A stretch of DNA of 12,754 nt. Source: an uncultured Clostridia bacterium (GTDB lineage Bacteria; Bacillota; Clostridia; Oscillospirales; Ruminococcaceae). Below, in pieces: positions 1 through 11,730 of the stretch (position 1 is its first letter; every line of letters starts with the position of its first letter). Under the pieces are notes generated by a model that saw only the letters and a list, made by a program, of their open reading frames with translations, was not told the DNA's origin and did no database searches. The stretch is taken from positions 1-12,754 of the forward strand of contig CAMHBE010000024.1 in assembly GCA_946183095.1 (NCBI GenBank). Reading direction: 5' to 3'. The translations under genes and the position numbers were made by a program.

Positions 1-1534
1 GGCGAAGAACGGGCTGTGCGCAGTGATGACCGGTGCGCACAGCTATACCGAGTTCATTGAGTCTTGCACCGACTTCATCATTGCTGTGACCGTCGAGGAC
101 GAACGAGAGTACGCTCGCTTTGTCGGCAGCCGTACCGATGAGATGAAGACCCGGTATCTTCCGAAGTTCGCCCATTGCATAAACGAGCAGGTCATGCTCA
201 TGCTTGTTGACCGCCGGCATACCTATCCCGGTCAGGTATTGCAGAGCCGCGCCCATTCCCACAGCGTCCGCGATACTGCCGGTCCCCGCTTCAAACTTGT
301 TCGGCGCGGGATTGTATATGGTGCGCTCGAACGTAACGTCCTTTATCATGTTGCCGCCGCCGTGGTAAGGTCTTGCGGCTTCGAGAAGATCGGACTTTCC
401 GTAAAGAGCGCCGATACCGGTGGGGGCGAATATCTTGTGACCGGAAAATACGTAGAAATCCGCGTCCAGTGCTGTAACATTCACAGGAATATGCGCAACG
501 GACTGCGCGCCGTCTATCATTATCGGAACACCGTGCGCGTGCGCGATCGCGATAAGCTCGGCGACCGGAGTTATCGTTCCGAGTACGTTGGAAACGTGAG
601 CTGCGCTGACAAATTTCGTGTGCCGTGTGAACAGCTTCTCGTATTCCGACATGATGAGCTGACCGCTCTCGTCGCAGGGTACGACTTTCAGCACCGCGCC
701 TGTCTCTTCCGCGACGAGCTGCCACGGTACGATGTTCGCGTGATGTTCGAGGATAGTCAGTATAATCTCGTCGCCGGGCTTCAGAAGCGGTTTGACATAG
801 GCGTTCGCCACAAGGTTTATGCCCTCGGTGGTACCGCGCACGAACACGATATCATCCTTTGAGGGAGCGCCTATAAAGTCTGCGGTTATCTGACGCGCGT
901 TCTCATAAGCGTCGGTGGAGCGTGCAGCAAGTTCATGCGCGCCGCGGTGAACGTTGGAGTTCTCGTGTGTGTAGTAATACGAAAGCCTGTCGATGACAGC
1001 CTGCGGACGCTGCGTGGTCGCGCCGTTGTCGAGCCATACCAGCGGATGACCGTTTATGACCTCACCGAGTATCGGGAAATCCGAACGTATCTGCCGGAGA
1101 GTCTTTGTACCGATAACGACATCATTGCTCGCCGAAACCGGTGCGGCAGCCGCCTGCGGAGCTGTTTTCGGGACATAGCTCTCAGCCTGCTTTTCGGACA
1201 TCACCGAGGGCGAGTACCCCGCCGGCGCGCCGGAAACCGCGGGAACGGACTCATTCACGCCGAAGTCGGTCCCGTTCATCAGTTCATCCGCAAGCCGCTC
1301 ATATTCGGAAAGATACCCGCCGCCGAAACCGTCCGCAAGCTGTTCGTAGCTGCTGTAACTTCCGGCGTAGTTCTCCGCTTTCTGCGCGGCTTCGTATATC
1401 ACCGAAGGGTCGCCGGATACCGCAAGCTTCTCTATGCCGTCGGCGCAGTGCTGCGCGTCGAAGTCCGGGAAAAGAGAGTTTGCAAGCGCTTCGAGTTCCC
1501 GCTCGGACGGAACGCCGTAATTAGTCGTAATCAT
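1..1534 (-). CDS. Encapsulin-associated type II cysteine desulfurase (SufS-like), 3' end cut by window
   Basis: PLP enzyme that takes sulfur from L-cysteine, giving alanine and an enzyme persulfide. About 511 residues are visible on the minus strand. The catalytic domain starts near residue 143. It shows LDNGATTQRP (169-178), the NVHRGAH segment (194-200), ILEHHANIVPW (261-271), DGAQSVAH (341-348), the PLP lysine in FSGHK (K367) and the persulfide cysteine in RTGHHCAQP (C505), which lies only 6 codons from the window edge. Some 40 more residues are expected outside. Ordinary SufS proteins have about 405 residues. Here residues 1-142 are an added, low-complexity, Ala/Ser/Pro-rich region, the known cargo-loading feature of desulfurases in family 2A encapsulins. 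The ATG overlaps the encapsulin 3' end by 14 bp with only a weak GGTGA site upstream, so translation is probably coupled to the shell gene. Function is firm; encapsulation is inferred from family knowledge and context. Confidence 0.93.
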   Translation of the reverse strand, partial: MITTNYGVPSERELEALANSLFPDFDAQHCADGIEKLAVSGDPSVIYEAAQKAENYAGSYSSYEQLADGFGGGYLSEYERLADELMNGTDFGVNESVPAVSGAPAGYSPSVMSEKQAESYVPKTAPQAAAAPVSASNDVVIGTKTLRQIRSDFPILGEVINGHPLVWLDNGATTQRPQAVIDRLSYYYTHENSNVHRGAHELAARSTDAYENARQITADFIGAPSKDDIVFVRGTTEGINLVANAYVKPLLKPGDEIILTILEHHANIVPWQLVAEETGAVLKVVPCDESGQLIMSEYEKLFTRHTKFVSAAHVSNVLGTITPVAELIAIAHAHGVPIMIDGAQSVAHIPVNVTALDADFYVFSGHKIFAPTGIGALYGKSDLLEAARPYHGGGNMIKDVTFERTIYNPAPNKFEAGTGSIADAVGMGAALQYLTGIGMPAVNKHEHDLLVYAMGELRKIPGLHLIGTAADKASVLSFVLDGHSNDEVGARLNELGIAVRTGHHCAQPVLR

Positions 1535-2477
1535 AGTATTCACCAACTTCAACATCTTCAAGTACCGCTATAGCATCGTCCGCAAGAATTGCAGCCGAGC
1601 AGTACAGCGACAGCAGGTACGATGCAACGCCCTTGTCGTCGATACCGCGGAAGCGTACCGCAAGTCCGCGTCCCTGCTCATTCTTGAGGTTACGCTGATA
1701 AAGACCGATAACACCGCGCTTTGCTTCACCGGTGCGGACCAGCAGGATGTTGGTCTTGCCGCCCTTGCCCTTGGGCTCCTTCACGCCGTCAACGAGCAGC
1801 TTGTTGGTGGGTATGATCGGGATGCCGCGCCAGAGTATGAACGTACCGCCCGCGATATTGGTCGTTGTGGGGGGAACTCCGCGCTTCGTGCATTCACGCT
1901 CGAATGCCGCTATAGCACGGGGATGCGCGAGGAAGAAGGACGGATCCTTCCACACCTTTGTGATAAGCTCATCGAGATCGTCGGGTGTGGGAGCGCCGCT
2001 TGCGGAAACAGGCTGGATGCGCTGCTTGTCGGCAATGTTTTTCAGCAGACCGTAATCATCGTTGTTGATGAGCTGGCTCTCCTGACGTTCACGCAGACTG
2101 TCTATCGCAAGGGAGAGCTGCTCCTTGGCCTGATCGAAAGGTGAGCTGTAAACATCGTCGATCGCGGTATGTACATTGATGATCGTCGAAATATTAGCAA
2201 GGCGGTATTCGCGGGGTTTCGCCTCGTATTCCACAAATCCCTGCGGGATGATGTCGGACTTCTTTTCGGAGCTGCACAGCACGTCAAGGGGAGTATCGCC
2301 CTCTTTTACCTTGTTCACGCGGTAGATACCGGAATCGAGCCCCTTGAATTCCAGCACCTTTGTGAGATACTTGGGGGTAAGCGCCGCGAACTGCGGTCTT
2401 GTCTTGTTGACATCGGCAAGGTTATACGCCGCGTCAGCTCCGAGAGCTATTATTTTTTCTTCATCTTTGGTCGCCAT
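1521..2477 (-). CDS. Family 2A encapsulin shell protein
   Basis: Shell protein of a protein nanocompartment with the HK97 phage-capsid fold. It has 318 residues, the usual length for shells without the cyclic-nucleotide-binding insert of family 2B. Recognisable family 2 segments are the N-terminal arm (AAYNLADVNKTRPQF, 16-30), the GIYRVN strand (about 50-55), a linker ending in GAPTPDDLDEL, the near-invariant FFLAHPRAIAAFERECTKRG helix, TFILWRGIPIIPTNKL, and the C-terminal ASYLLSLYCSAAILADDA with VLEDVEVGEY. Family 2A shells package cysteine desulfurase, and characterised examples store elemental sulfur; the same role is inferred here. GGAGG lies 8 nt before the ATG. It is the first gene of a unit driven by the promoter at 2539-2567, and the desulfurase gene overlaps its stop. 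Base composition does not differ visibly from its neighbours. Confidence 0.95.
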   Translation of the reverse strand: MATKDEEKIIALGADAAYNLADVNKTRPQFAALTPKYLTKVLEFKGLDSGIYRVNKVKEGDTPLDVLCSSEKKSDIIPQGFVEYEAKPREYRLANISTIINVHTAIDDVYSSPFDQAKEQLSLAIDSLRERQESQLINNDDYGLLKNIADKQRIQPVSASGAPTPDDLDELITKVWKDPSFFLAHPRAIAAFERECTKRGVPPTTTNIAGGTFILWRGIPIIPTNKLLVDGVKEPKGKGGKTNILLVRTGEAKRGVIGLYQRNLKNEQGRGLAVRFRGIDDKGVASYLLSLYCSAAILADDAIAVLEDVEVGEYYDYD

Positions 2478-2511
2478 TTTGATTGCCTCCTGTATAGCTT
2501 ATCTTATTTTA

Positions 2512-2528
2512 CATATCATTTTGATATG
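2512..2528 (-). promoter_or_regulatory. Palindromic operator candidate of the encapsulin operon
   Basis: CATATC-N5-GATATG, perfect 6-bp arms, centred about 20 bp downstream of the -10 box and upstream of the ribosome binding site. The gene-sense spacer is AAAAT. The same arms and spacing recur before the E1/rhodanese gene at 4117-4133. A DNA operator is the likeliest reading; a small hairpin in the 5' UTR is possible. Confidence 0.6.
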
Positions 2529-2538
2529 CTTAATGTGC

Positions 2539-2567
2539 ATTATAACACAGTTTTTTTGAAATTGCAA
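2539..2567 (-). promoter_or_regulatory. Sigma-A promoter of the encapsulin-desulfurase operon
   Basis: On the minus strand TTGCAA (2562-2567), a 17-bp spacer ending TGTGT, and TATAAT (2539-2544). No convincing terminator lies between the upstream gene's stop (2611) and this promoter, so read-through from the E1/rhodanese gene is also possible. Confidence 0.75.
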
Positions 2568-2610
2568 TAGTTTTCACATATTTTTCAATATAAAACACCA
2601 AACCATTTTA

Positions 2611-4086
2611 TCAGTATTGCGGGAAAGAACTGTCAACTTCTCGTGACCACGCGTTCGTACCGCCGGCAAGGTTGTACGCCGCACCCTTATATCCCGCTTC
2701 ATGCAGGGTGCGCACCGCGAGGATGCTGCGCTTTCCCTCCTTGCACACGAACACGGTATCGGCTGTCGGGTCAAGTTCGTCCTGTCTGCGGGCGAGCTGC
2801 CCTATCGGTATCACCAGCGCATCGGGGAACTTCGCGATAGCACGTTCATGAGGTTCCCGCACATCGACTATGGTTATCTTCTCACCCGCGTCGATACGGC
2901 GTTTCAGCTCCTTCGGCTCTATTCCCTCGACTTCCTCGTCCTCTTCTTCCTGCGCCTTTATGCCGCAGAAATCCTCGTAGTCGTATTCCTCTATCTCTGT
3001 GATCGAGGGATGTTCGCCGCATACAGGGCAGTCCGGGTCTTTTCGTATTTTCAGTTCCCGCCAGCGCATACGCCACGCGTCGAACATCACGAGCCGTCCG
3101 ATAAGGGGCTTGCCGCCGCCGACTATCAGCTTTATGACCTCGTTAGCCTGCACCGTGCCTATTATGCCGGGGAGGACTCCCACAACTCCGCCCATTGCGC
3201 AGGACGGGACAAGACCGGCAGGCGGCGGCGCGGGGTACATACAACGGTAGCAGGGACCCTCTTTGGCGTAGTAAACAGCCGCCTGCCCCTCGAACTGATA
3301 CATGGCGCCGAACACGTCCGGCTTCCCGAGCAGAACGCACGCATCGTTCACGAGATAACGGGTCTGGTAGTTGTCGGACGCATCCGCCACGACATCATAC
3401 TGCGAGATGAGCTCCCGGGCGTTCTCCGCCGTGAGCCGCACGTTGTACGTTTCCACTTTGACCAGCGGGTTTATCTGCTTTATGCTGTCCTTTGCGCTTG
3501 CAACTTTCGGTCTGCCGATATCCCGCGAACCGTGTATGACCTGTCTTTGCAGGTTGCTCTCCTCGACTTCGTCAAAATCCACCAGACCGAGCGTTCCCAC
3601 ACCGGCGGCGGCGAGGTACTGCGCGAGGGGAGTTCCGAGACCGCCCATCCCGACTATCAGGACTTTTGCGGCTTTAAGGCGGCGCTGACCTTTCACGCCT
3701 ATCTCTTTCAGCAGCAGGTGGCGGGAATACCGTTTTATCTCGTCATTAGTGAGCTTATCGCCTATCCTGTCGCCGAGTATGCCGGGATGCTCGTCGTTCA
3801 CGGTATCGCCGCTGCCTCCTGCTATAGCGGGTATCAGCATTATCTCGTCACCGTCCTTCACCGCGGTATCATAGCCTTGCAGGTCGCGGATATTGTCCGC
3901 CCCGACGAACACGTTTATGAATCCGCGCAGTCTTCCGTCTTCGCCGTAAAGCACTTTTCCGGTCTCGGGGTACTCGTCCGAGAGCGCGGTTATGACTTCG
4001 CCGACCGTCGAGCCTTCGAGTTCTATTTCCGACCTGTGTTCCGTGAACATACGGAGCGTGGTCGGTACGATCACTGTTACAGACAT
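2611..4086 (-). CDS. MoaD/CysO-like sulfur carrier - MoeB/ThiF E1-like - rhodanese three-domain fusion
   Basis: Predicted one-chain system for making a protein thiocarboxylate, 491 residues. Residues 1-91 are a beta-grasp carrier ending in LIPAIAGG, the MoaD/CysO-type diglycine tail. A linker (92-111) follows. The E1-like adenylyltransferase (112-about 365) shows RYSRHLLLKEIG, the nucleotide loop GMGGLG (146-151), SNLQRQ, DASDNYQTRYLVND, two zinc CxxC pairs (C279/C282, C353/C356), and C296 in PSCAMGG as the probable conserved thiol. An acidic linker (about 379-388) precedes a rhodanese domain with active loop CKEGKR (C448). Together they match CysO plus MoeZ in mycobacteria or Urm1 plus Uba4. 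The ATG at 4086 is chosen because AAGGAG sits 7 nt upstream; an ATG 33 bp earlier lies within the palindrome and has no such site. The carrier's GG is internal, so thiocarboxylation would need cleavage after G91. It shares an operator motif with the encapsulin operon. Confidence 0.92.
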   Translation of the reverse strand: MSVTVIVPTTLRMFTEHRSEIELEGSTVGEVITALSDEYPETGKVLYGEDGRLRGFINVFVGADNIRDLQGYDTAVKDGDEIMLIPAIAGGSGDTVNDEHPGILGDRIGDKLTNDEIKRYSRHLLLKEIGVKGQRRLKAAKVLIVGMGGLGTPLAQYLAAAGVGTLGLVDFDEVEESNLQRQVIHGSRDIGRPKVASAKDSIKQINPLVKVETYNVRLTAENARELISQYDVVADASDNYQTRYLVNDACVLLGKPDVFGAMYQFEGQAAVYYAKEGPCYRCMYPAPPPAGLVPSCAMGGVVGVLPGIIGTVQANEVIKLIVGGGKPLIGRLVMFDAWRMRWRELKIRKDPDCPVCGEHPSITEIEEYDYEDFCGIKAQEEEDEEVEGIEPKELKRRIDAGEKITIVDVREPHERAIAKFPDALVIPIGQLARRQDELDPTADTVFVCKEGKRSILAVRTLHEAGYKGAAYNLAGGTNAWSREVDSSFPQY

Positions 4087-4113
4087 AGCGTATCTCCTTG
4101 CATATTTCATATT

Positions 4114-4136
4114 ATTCATATCGGTTTGATATGAAT
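4114..4136 (-). promoter_or_regulatory. Palindromic operator candidate of the E1/rhodanese gene
   Basis: Perfect 9-bp inverted repeat ATTCATATC-N5-GATATGAAT, 2 bp downstream of the -10 box, so it should cover the transcription start. Its core CATATC-N5-GATATG matches the site at 2512-2528. In gene sense both spacers begin AAA. Position over the start site suggests repression. The regulator is not identifiable from this window. Confidence 0.65.
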
Positions 4137-4138
4137 AT

Positions 4139-4167
4139 ATTATAACGCAGACTTACGGTTTTGTCAA
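4139..4167 (-). promoter_or_regulatory. Consensus sigma-A promoter of the E1/rhodanese gene
   Basis: Minus-strand TTGACA (4162-4167), exactly 17 bp, TATAAT (4139-4144): a full match to the housekeeping consensus. The palindrome at 4114-4136 follows directly. Confidence 0.82.
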
Positions 4168-4212: not shown

Positions 4213-5541
4213 TCACATCTGCCGCATACGGTATCTCTTGTCATCATCTATCATTTTCAGCATTATATCCGCAAATCCGGGGTCGAACTGCGTACCGCTG
4301 CCCTTCTCTATTTCCGCCCTTACTACATCCTGCGGCAGTACATCCCTGTAGCTGCGTTTGGAAGTCATTGCATCATAGGTGTCCGCGACCGCGATGATCC
4401 TTGCAAACAGCGGGATATCGTCCCCTTTCAGACCCTCCGGATAGCCTGTCCCGTCATAGCGTTCGTGATGATAATGAGCACCAATGCAGAGTTCGGGATT
4501 TTTTTGTATTTTTTTCAATATCTGATATCCTATGACGGTATGCGTTTTTATGACATCGTTCTCTTCATCGGTCAGCCTGCAGTCCTTGTTGATTATGCTT
4601 TCGGGTATGCCTATCTTCCCGACGTCATGCAGCAGCGCCGCAAGATAGATGTTTCGGCAGTCTTTTTTGTCCATGCCGTATTTCTTCGCGATTTTTCTGG
4701 AGTAATGCGCCACTCTCGCGGAATGTCCGTGTGTGTATTCGTCCTTTGCATCTATCGCGGCTGCAAGCGCATAGGCAGTCTCCTCGATCATTTCGGACAT
4801 ATCTTCCTGTTTCTGTGACATAAGCTCCTTTTCTCTTTTATGCGACGCTTCAAGTTCATTATTGGTATTGATGATCTCGATGAGCCTCAGAGCGACCGTC
4901 AGTACGGCAAGAGCGGTATTTGTGACCGACAGCCCGTAACAGAAGAACTGCACCAGCGATGCCAGTACAGGCAGCATAGAAAAGACGAGAAGCGACCCCA
5001 GCATCAGGTGATTGAGCTTCTTCCTGTTCTGTATGACTGTAATACTTTGCAGCACCCACACGACTGCGGGTATCAGGTAAGCTATAAAATACAGGTCGGA
5101 TCTCTGATAGACGTTGTTATCATCGAAAGTATAATATAATCCCGTGAATTGTGATACAATGAGCAGCACGACCCCGAGCAGCAGCAGTCCTTCATTTACA
5201 ACGAGCATCAGCGGTGTTTTTTCGCCCTTGTCCTTATCCTTGAGAATACCGACAAGATACCAGTTGAACGCCTGTATCGTCAGCAGTGTGAGAAAAAATA
5301 CCGCAAAATTGCTTATCCTTACCATCCAGTACCCTGTCTCGCTCCGGTCGCCTCTGAAAATATATGCGTTGCGATCCGCAACTATAAGAAAAGTTGAAGC
5401 GAAGCCCATAATGAGCAGCGCCATTTTCTTTTGTCCGGATGTATGCGAAAACAGTCCGCAAACAGTTATGGCAAAACAGATACCCTCAAGCACAAGCATG
5501 ATATCCAGCTGATTTTGTTTCAGAACATCCAAAATACTCAT
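4213..5541 (-). CDS. Membrane-anchored HD-GYP cyclic-di-GMP phosphodiesterase
   Basis: 442 residues. The N-terminal half has about seven hydrophobic segments (roughly 12-32, 40-56, 75-98, 110-131, 150-170, 179-200, 203-222), an integral membrane module that may sense a signal. A charged coiled-coil-like linker (about 225-255) follows. The C-terminal HD-GYP domain has metal and substrate residues H271-H273, HD in LLHDVGKIG (H305/D306), H334, HYHHE (356-360), GYP in DGTGYPEG (G366-P368) and AVADTYDAMTS. All key residues appear intact, so cyclic-di-GMP hydrolysis is likely. The ATG has GGAAGG upstream and its own consensus promoter at 5622-5650. Transcription leads towards the E1/rhodanese gene. 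I see a T-run after the stop but no good hairpin terminator. The signal sensed is unknown. Confidence 0.9.
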   Translation of the reverse strand: MSILDVLKQNQLDIMLVLEGICFAITVCGLFSHTSGQKKMALLIMGFASTFLIVADRNAYIFRGDRSETGYWMVRISNFAVFFLTLLTIQAFNWYLVGILKDKDKGEKTPLMLVVNEGLLLLGVVLLIVSQFTGLYYTFDDNNVYQRSDLYFIAYLIPAVVWVLQSITVIQNRKKLNHLMLGSLLVFSMLPVLASLVQFFCYGLSVTNTALAVLTVALRLIEIINTNNELEASHKREKELMSQKQEDMSEMIEETAYALAAAIDAKDEYTHGHSARVAHYSRKIAKKYGMDKKDCRNIYLAALLHDVGKIGIPESIINKDCRLTDEENDVIKTHTVIGYQILKKIQKNPELCIGAHYHHERYDGTGYPEGLKGDDIPLFARIIAVADTYDAMTSKRSYRDVLPQDVVRAEIEKGSGTQFDPGFADIMLKMIDDDKRYRMRQM

Positions 5542-9967: not shown

Positions 9968-10002
9968 ATTACCAAAGAGCTGTGTTCAGAGGAGGAGCGA
10001 TC

Positions 10003-11730
10003 ATGCCGGATACCAACAACAATATCAGCGATATCAACCATATCCCCACCGGTCTGCCGGGCGGTTTCTTCATCTACCGCGCCGACGAGAAAGAGGAGAT
10101 ACTGTTCGCGGAAGAGAACGTAATAAAGCTGTTCGGATGCGAAACTATCACCGAACTGCGGGAATTCACCGGCAACAGCTTTCAGGGCATGGTGCATCCC
10201 GACGACCTCGACAAGATACAAAACGAGATAAAGTCTCAGACCATGACTTCCGAGAAACGCCACGACTATGTGCGCTACCGCATCGTGACCAAGCAGGGCG
10301 ATACCCGCTATATCGAGGATTTCGGGCATTTGCTGCACGGTGAGCACGGCCTCAGCTACTTCTATGTGTTCATAGTTGATATCGACAAGAACGAATACCT
10401 CAACCGCAGCCGCAACAGCTTCGCGGAAACGCAGATTTTCTCCATGAACCAGAACAGCGACCGGCTTACCGGTCTGTACAATATGGCGACCTTCTACCGG
10501 AAAGTGCAGGATATCATATCCGACGACAGCCAACGCACCGCTGACAAGTTCACTTTTGTGCATCTCGACATTGCGAATTTCAAGATATTCAACGAGCGAT
10601 ACGGTTTCCAGCGCGGCGACGACCTGCTGTGCCGTATAGCATACACTATCCGCAGCCTTTTCGGCGATATCAGTATCGCGGCGCGTTTCTCCAACGACCA
10701 TTTCGTGATATTCACCGCAGCGCACAATGTCACCGAACTTGTGGAAAAACTGCATGACAGTATTCTGAATATTATAGAAGGTACACGCGTAGAGATACGC
10801 GCGGGCATCTACGAACTCGAAGACTCCTGCAAGGAAGTCGGTCTTGCCTGCGACCGCGCCCGTCTTGCCTGCAACACAGTAAAGCACCGCTACGACATCA
10901 TCTACAACATATATGACGTGAAGCTCTACGAAAAGCTCCGCAAGCAGCAGTACGTTGTGGATTACGTTGATGACGCGGTCGAAAAGGAGTACATAAAGGT
11001 GTACTACCAGCCTGTCATCCGCGTAAAGACAGGCGAGATATGCGGCTATGAAGCGCTTGCAAGGTGGATCGACCCGAAAGTCGGGTTTCTCTCCCCTGCC
11101 GACTTTATCGAAACGCTTGAAAAGTTCCACCTTATACACAAGATAGACGCGTTCATCGTAAAAAAAGTCTGCGAGGGCTACTGCACACTCCGTGACATGG
11201 GAGAGCCTCTCGTTCCCGTGTCGATAAACCTTTCGCGTCTCGACTTTGAGCTTTGCAACATCGTCGAGATCGTTGAGAACTACCGCAGGCTGTACGATGT
11301 TCCGCGGAATATGCTGGATATCGAAGTAACGGAGAGCGCTCTGAACGAAAGATCCGACCACCTGAAAAACGAGTGCAGGAAGTTCCGCGACAACGGCTAC
11401 CAGATATGGATAGACGATTTCGGCAGCGGTTACAGTTCACTGAACACCCTCATGGAGTACGACTTCGATGTGCTGAAGCTCGACATGGAGTTTCTGCGCA
11501 CCTACGACCACAACCCCAAGACCGGCAATCTGCTCAACTACATAGTCTATGCCGCTGTGGAAATGGGCATTCAGCCGCTCACGGAGGGCGTTGAAACGCA
11601 GGAGCACTACGAATTTCTGAAAGGCATAGGCTGCGAAAAAGCACAGGGTTACTTCTTCGGAAAACCCTTGCCAATGGAGGAGACCCGCAGGCAAACACGG
11701 GAAAAGGGACTTGCATGGGAACAGGTGTGA
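10003..11730 (+). CDS. PAS - degenerate GGDEF - EAL cyclic-di-GMP phosphodiesterase
   Basis: 575 residues, no membrane segments, so cytoplasmic. Residues about 15-130 form a PAS-like sensor (PGGFFIYRAD, MVHPDDLDKI, RYRIVTKQGDTRYIEDFG). Residues about 151-305 have the GGDEF fold (DRLTGLYN) but the signature loop reads RFSNDHF (218-224), so diguanylate cyclase activity should be lost. The EAL domain (about 312-570) keeps YEALARW (E340), N399 in SINLSRLDF, E431 in DIEVTES, DDFGSGYSSL (D461, D462), K482 in LKLD, E518/E521 in TEGVE and Q538 in AQGYFFGKPLP, so phosphodiesterase activity is expected. The ATG at 10003 has AGGAGG 7 nt upstream; an in-frame ATG at 9982 lies before that site and is rejected. 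Single gene with its own promoter. Confidence 0.92.
   Translation: MPDTNNNISDINHIPTGLPGGFFIYRADEKEEILFAEENVIKLFGCETITELREFTGNSFQGMVHPDDLDKIQNEIKSQTMTSEKRHDYVRYRIVTKQGDTRYIEDFGHLLHGEHGLSYFYVFIVDIDKNEYLNRSRNSFAETQIFSMNQNSDRLTGLYNMATFYRKVQDIISDDSQRTADKFTFVHLDIANFKIFNERYGFQRGDDLLCRIAYTIRSLFGDISIAARFSNDHFVIFTAAHNVTELVEKLHDSILNIIEGTRVEIRAGIYELEDSCKEVGLACDRARLACNTVKHRYDIIYNIYDVKLYEKLRKQQYVVDYVDDAVEKEYIKVYYQPVIRVKTGEICGYEALARWIDPKVGFLSPADFIETLEKFHLIHKIDAFIVKKVCEGYCTLRDMGEPLVPVSINLSRLDFELCNIVEIVENYRRLYDVPRNMLDIEVTESALNERSDHLKNECRKFRDNGYQIWIDDFGSGYSSLNTLMEYDFDVLKLDMEFLRTYDHNPKTGNLLNYIVYAAVEMGIQPLTEGVETQEHYEFLKGIGCEKAQGYFFGKPLPMEETRRQTREKGLAWEQV

Follow-up and report, generated by a model that had tools for sequence, protein, structure and literature searches.

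The window (the whole stretch of 12,754 nucleotides that was analysed, which is the complete contig C24) encodes a protein of 491 amino acid residues in which a CysO-like sulfur carrier, a MoeB/ThiF-type E1 and a rhodanese domain are joined in one chain, beside the genes of a family 2A encapsulin system. This fusion architecture is real and recurrent, and the diglycine of its carrier is kept inside the chain. We consider it probable that the fusion is a precursor, from which a JAMM peptidase releases the carrier after Gly91, the carrier then being loaded with sulfur from the encapsulated cysteine desulfurase. Fused carrier-E1 proteins and CysO-JAMM-CysM operons are already known; as far as our literature searches show, a carrier-E1-rhodanese chain with a kept internal Gly-Gly and tied to a sulfur encapsulin is new.

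The fusion gene occupies positions 2611..4086 of the minus strand (open reading frame and Pfam domains), a strand that had not been given when the sequence was first read, within a frame (2611-4119) whose likely start codon is ATG 4086. A ribosome-binding-like AAGGAG (4094..4099, minus strand, by sequence reading) is located 7 nt upstream of this codon. ATG 4119 was rejected as the start, since the ribosome-binding-like site is better at ATG 4086, which also agrees with the starts of most aligned homologues. Upstream of the gene, a sigma-70-like promoter, TTGACA-17-TATAAT, was noticed by consensus match only (4139..4167, minus strand) and, with promoter-like and ribosome-binding-like sites of its own, the gene may be the first of a transcription unit with the encapsulin and desulfurase genes. 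The sequence-only reading had placed carrier, E1 and rhodanese in one chain, and Pfam matches to ThiS (residues 5-91, 8e-12), ThiF (120-355, 3e-84) and Rhodanese (391-482, 4e-14) within the 491 residues bear this out. The same three-domain architecture is present in all 120 listed homologues (the best of 7998 scored, down to 73% identity), and a chance or misframed open reading frame was therefore rejected. A long open reading frame, 2701-4134(+), runs antisense to the fusion gene.

The E1 adenylation domain (residues 112-358; 3013..3753, minus strand; Pfam, residue check and fold match) contains GMGGLG (146-151), CYRC (279-282), CPVC (353-356) and C296, and the rhodanese domain (residues 391-482; 2641..2916, minus strand; Pfam and residue check) contains C448 in CKEGKR, so that the glycine loop, the two CxxC pairs and the rhodanese cysteine are intact, as had been read from the letters. 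R122, R181, K194, D238 and C296, which we take to be the residues of MoeB/ThiF catalysis, are also all present. Uba4/MOCS3 and the bacterial MoeBR share the E1 plus rhodanese arrangement, and to our knowledge their chains have no carrier domain. With both CxxC pairs and the rhodanese active cysteine, the E1-rhodanese part fits the MoeBR/Uba4 type, and the mark of MoeZR, loss of the two CxxC motifs, is absent (C279, C282, C353 and C356 are present); keeping both pairs is a mark of MoeBR rather than MoeZR (PMC3227635). The score exceeds the cut-off of the MoeB subfamily model NF004281 (311.7 vs 266) and lies under the cut-offs of the four best-scoring equivalog models. The first fold match is Uba4 (6yub, E 4.6e-35), with a TM of 0.47 of the query and the domains placed differently.

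In one branch of fused proteins from Lachnospiraceae/Succinivibrionaceae (L015, L017, L024, L027 and L029), G149 is replaced by Ala or Ser and R181 by Ser or Cys in all five, and R122 by Lys in three of the five, while the GG and C448 stay; elsewhere, G149 and R181 are kept. A second E1, with JAMM and TusA, is encoded a few kb downstream in these five loci, and the fused E1 of this branch may have ceded adenylation to it.

Residues 1-91 of the fusion (3814..4086, minus strand) align with residues 1-93 of CysO (3dwg_C, E 6.5e-14), the best match among nine PDB sequences, and the CysO chain terminates at the equivalent of G91; this full-length match places the end of a free carrier at residue 91. 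The diglycine G90-G91 (3814..3819, minus strand), after which we propose the cut on the basis of its conservation in relatives, is followed by 400 residues, and the earlier observation that it stands away from the C-terminus holds. A free C-terminal GG as translated, which is a CysO-type trait, is thus absent (GG at 90-91 of 491), and cleavage would be needed, since Gly91, held in a peptide bond, offers no carboxylate for adenylation. The diglycine is followed by a variable linker (residues 92-111; 3754..3813, minus strand), with model pLDDT below 50 at residues 90-98 and, in the alignment, a length of 10 to 23 residues among 33 fused proteins. The predicted model of the fusion has a mean pLDDT of 84.6 and a pTM of 0.70, and its low values at residues 90-98 are consistent with an open, flexible cleavage site.

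The diglycine is strongly conserved. PAIAGG is present in 119 and PPIAGG in one of the 120 listed homologues (the best 120 of 7998 scored, at least 73% identical), and the GG is present in 45/45 carrier domains from 80 loci, 19 of these fused. All 19 fused loci from the genome scan, whose proteins are 48-89% identical to that of the window, keep it too, and its codons vary synonymously among them in 10 combinations. Among the 33 fused proteins, five of the six PAIAGG columns are invariant, as compared with 0/20 in the linker and 3/85 in the remaining carrier, and Ala or Ser directly follows the GG in 31. Relatives without the GG, which the sequence-only reading had named as counter-evidence, were found in none of the sequences examined. 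A control is provided by PF14453 (ThiS-like-ThiF fusions), present in 7/148 genomes: the GG is absent in 5/5 matches over the cut-off, two weaker matches standing outside this count, and the five frames read have only 268-273 residues. These five show how a fused domain looks once it has given up its carrier role. PF14453 had no match in the window's own genome, and the window's fusion retains the GG. Taken together, the sequences indicate that the carrier role has very probably been kept in the fusion family.

A scan of genome contigs gave at least 587 confirmed stretches, the best 80 loci of which were sorted by hand into three sets: 19 fused, 22 split, in which a separate carrier gene is linked to that of the E1-rhodanese, and 39 other (L038 and L076 were counted among the latter, though a ThiS match lies further off). 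Fusions occur in Bacillota, Succinivibrionaceae, Gemmatimonadota, Chloroflexota and Acidobacteriota, mostly in metagenome bins. The window's class was represented by 391 genomes; a match at E <= 1e-60 occurs in 36 of these and covers the carrier part in two, the window's and G313, the fusion of the latter sitting between a JAMM gene and an encapsulin gene. A further ThiS-family match, perhaps a second fusion, lies within a 509-residue frame of contig C26 in G398, the genome of L017.

Fused and split forms are intermingled. On a tree of 81 E1-rhodanese sequences (a quick search with SH-aLRT only and several long branches), the fused/split state changes seven times, at least five of these changes being forced by starred branches; fused L028 neighbours split L034 and L042, and fused and split forms are neighbours in Solibacteraceae. 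A candidate E1 start lies at most 20 nt from the carrier stop in 16/21 split loci (further off in the other five), and the idea that the split forms are sequencing errors was accordingly rejected. In the split carriers read (21 of the 22, L040 being left out), the chain extends 1-18 residues beyond the GG in 18 and ends at the GG in three; the tail of L034 was here counted from a later GG, and its carrier domain as listed with the loci shows six residues. Since 18/21 run past the GG, the split forms too would need trimming. The two forms appear equivalent from their sequences, and in both the peptide after the GG generally appears to require removal.

The sulfur nanocompartment that had been placed next to the fusion was recovered: 1521..2477 of the minus strand encodes a family 2A encapsulin shell protein (SrpI-like; NF041162, 464 bits, cut-off 380). 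The adjacent gene (2..1561, minus strand), which is interrupted by the contig end, encodes a cysteine desulfurase with an N-terminal extension, by best match an encapsulin cargo (NF041166, 716 bits, below the cut-off of 800). The window thus has the operon trait of family 2A encapsulins, a shell gene with adjacent cysteine desulfurase, its cargo being incomplete and below the model cut-off. In the 18-row tree group that includes the window's protein (support 100, midpoint root), the shell gene is present in 15 of the 17 loci in addition to the window, the desulfurase gene adjoining it in 15/15 (located in L026 on the other strand from the E1). Two loci lack it, L008 and L016, of which the latter has the shell on another contig of its genome; in L008, neither encapsulin nor desulfurase nor JAMM was hit in the locus, and neither encapsulin nor JAMM was matched in its genome. 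By comparison, the shell gene is present in 0/24 other carrier-linked loci, and in one (that of L030) of the nine genomes of these loci that were searched for a shell gene elsewhere.

Genes of cysteine metabolism are found around these systems. A PALP gene is present in 7/19 fused and 18/22 split loci. A cysteine synthase homologue precedes the JAMM gene in L009 (a short frame, with the cysM model best yet below cut-off) and in L018 (best PDB matches to cysteine synthase B), and serine O-acetyltransferase homologues follow the desulfurase in L009 and L012, both below the cysE cut-off, the former just over and the latter just under the EpsC cut-off. L010 has thioredoxin reductase and an Rrf2 regulator among its neighbour genes.

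The sequence-only reading had proposed a survey for the three-domain architecture and for nearby JAMM genes; the architecture recurs in several phyla, and a JAMM frame abuts the fusion in 14/19 fused loci (gaps being measured between stop-to-stop frames). JAMM is present in the locus in 15/19 fused, 21/22 split and 2/39 other E1-rhodanese loci, 27 of these 39 belonging to one actinobacterial clade. It is over the cut-off in 17 of the 18 fusion genomes searched, these 18 being those of every fused locus except L029, as compared with 50/391 genomes of the window's class (127/391 at E <= 0.001), a comparison that ignores kinship, since the fusions span phyla and the 391 genomes are one class; the Fisher values computed for the locus counts ignore it likewise. 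Because JAMM genes accompany non-fused carrier-E1 systems too, their presence is more direct support for a working carrier than for cutting of the fusion. On a tree, the JAMM sequences fall into two clades, members of the first abutting fusions and those of the second accompanying an E1/TusA operon. The genomes of the window, L010 and L012 contain JAMM of the second clade only, which keeps an intact E/HxHP...S..D signature.

Earlier, release by a protease and a dead docking module had been left as alternatives. Conservation of the GG, the JAMM linkage and the GG-less PF14453 control favour the former, and release of the carrier by JAMM is likely across the family, to judge from these patterns. 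The proposal stands less firmly for the window's own genome, where no JAMM was found near the fusion and the only one found is of the type that lies beside another carrier operon; there, the gene content makes such release plausible.

From the domains, the intact active residues, the conserved GG and the gene neighbours, we infer the following chemical steps, including cleavage and the path by which sulfur leaves the shell. A JAMM metallopeptidase would cut after Gly91 post-translation, giving a carrier of the CysO kind that ends in a free Gly-Gly, and the remainder would be an E1-rhodanese enzyme of the MoeBR/Uba4 kind. This enzyme would adenylate the carrier, the encapsulated cysteine desulfurase would pass sulfane sulfur to Cys448 of its rhodanese, and a thiocarboxylate would arise on the carrier. 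This thiocarboxylate would be used by a PLP enzyme, which resembles CysM in many relatives and is an O-acetylhomoserine sulfhydrylase homologue in others, to form a carrier-amino-acid adduct (HcyS/HcyD is said to be a homocysteine carrier system), and JAMM would then free the amino acid from the adduct. Both JAMM cuts would be at one kind of bond, Gly-Gly-X: the CysO-cysteine adduct is hydrolysed by the protease Mec+ (PMC3227635), so that precursor maturation and product release could be the work of a single enzyme. Cutting of the carrier by a protease, as the relatives suggest, would point to a module for cysteine recycling that is linked with the shell.

Several described systems share parts of this scheme. 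With CysO/MoeZR/CysM/Mec+ (an operon type listed in row 4c by Iyer et al., 2006, PMC1779556), the window and its relatives share a CysO-like carrier, an E1 with rhodanese and, in many relatives, nearby cysteine synthase and JAMM genes; the window differs in that the carrier is fused to the E1, both CxxC pairs are kept and an encapsulin is linked. MoaX, which is cut between Gly82 and Ser83, a cut needed for activity (PMC4326299), and DR2607, a MoaD-MoaE fusion cut by JAMM (PMC8832034), share the internal Gly-Gly carrier end, with Ser as the next residue in both MoaX and the window's fusion, and are known to be cut post-translation. Their fusion partner is MoaE, the sulfur acceptor, whereas that of the window's carrier is the activating enzyme. 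By analogy with this pair, release after Gly91 would be the best explanation for the window's carrier as well. The PF14453 Ub-like-ThiF fusions (the Campylobacter type of Iyer et al.) and archaeal Ubl-E1 fusions (PMC2948915) share a beta-grasp domain before the E1; the PF14453 proteins differ from the 491-residue, GG-containing fusion in their lack of the GG and their short frames, and a separate ThiS gene accompanies the Campylobacter-type fusions (PMC1779556). Family 2A encapsulin-cysteine desulfurase systems (SrpI) share the shell and cargo genes, and a 2021 survey lists rhodaneses and serine acetyltransferases as enriched neighbours (PMC8346489), whereas the window's rhodanese is part of a carrier-E1 enzyme and its relatives add JAMM and cysteine synthase genes. 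The terms MoeB, ThiF and 'sulfur carrier' are absent from that survey's main text, as are, by term search, rhodanese, MoeB and ThiF from the 2021 SrpI paper, and our literature searches returned no description linking an encapsulin with a sulfur carrier, MoeB or CysO.

The remainder of the window's genome (72% complete, 389 contigs) contains a second sulfur-carrier operon on contig C313 (L088), positions 1-3078, encoding a Cys/Met PLP enzyme, TusA, thioredoxin, a ThiS ending in GGGAV and an E1 without rhodanese. The PLP gene of this operon has a frame change in its 5' part, near base 275. The single JAMM found in the genome, of the second clade, is encoded at the start of contig C164. In L010, MetZ-TusA-Trx-ThiS-E1-JAMM stand directly behind fusion-SrpI-desulfurase and, since the ends of C313 and C164 share a repeat, the same gene order is likely in the window's genome. 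A CCGCTAATCGGG-like repeat is common to the end of L088 (C313) and the start of L089, where the assembly probably broke. CysM was not seen in this 72% complete genome, the single PALP match being TrpB.

This second operon bears on an alternative in which the fusion stays intact, its carrier domain being a built-in docking or self-occupying module with the GG tail occupying the E1 site, and the enzyme loads another carrier, for instance the C313 ThiS. We regard it as unlikely. In its favour, the window's genome encodes a second ThiS-type carrier that is free and accompanied by an E1, TusA and thioredoxin of its own, the search of this genome (72% complete) returned no JAMM of the clade that abuts fusions, and a pseudo-substrate tail could likewise conserve the GG. 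Nevertheless, the second operon has an E1 of its own, fused and split forms interchange, and the GG is gone in 5/5 proteins read of the GG-less fusion family. Moreover, no second ThiS-family match was found in the genomes G394, G399 and G391, and in G394 and G399 JAMM is present with the fused domain as the sole ThiS-family match.

It is quite unlikely that, in the window's branch, the carrier is released by a non-JAMM protease or the fusion is decaying after loss of its own JAMM. PMC4326299 names no protease for MoaX, the genome of L008, whose fusion is the closest to the window's among the fused loci (89% identity), gave no JAMM match, and the genomes of the window, L010 and L012 have the other type only; but these genomes are mostly metagenome bins, perhaps incomplete, the signature of the other-type JAMM is intact, and the window, L008, L010 and L012 all retain the GG and the active residues that were counted. 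That the fusion belongs to a ubiquitin-like conjugation system (SAMP/Urm1-like), with the carrier attached to proteins and JAMM as the deconjugase, is extremely improbable: Urm1/SAMP carriers perform both sulfur transfer and protein conjugation, and the JAMMs scanned, one of each type, match the desampylase model under its cut-off, but the identified neighbours are cysteine/homocysteine enzymes, encapsulin and desulfurase.

Family 2A encapsulins reportedly store sulfur. The shell and desulfurase genes beside a carrier-E1-rhodanese clade, joined in many loci by JAMM and cysteine synthase or sulfhydrylase genes, offer a specific acceptor and a testable use for encapsulin sulfur, and the recurrent joining and separation of carrier and E1 leads to a simple prediction about processing. 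Returning to release of the carrier by JAMM, we tentatively extend it to a single sulfur bank formed by encapsulin and carrier fusion, a possible but doubtful reading in which the encapsulated desulfurase would deposit cysteine sulfur into the shell, the rhodanese-E1 would withdraw it, and the PLP enzyme and JAMM would remake cysteine or homocysteine. The cleaved fusion would supply the carrier one-to-one, and JAMM would have two jobs, precursor maturation and product release.

Outside the sulfur genes, the window contains an HD-domain gene, 4213-5541(-), which scores above the cut-off of the HDIG model, and 9982-11730(+) reads as a GGDEF-EAL protein.
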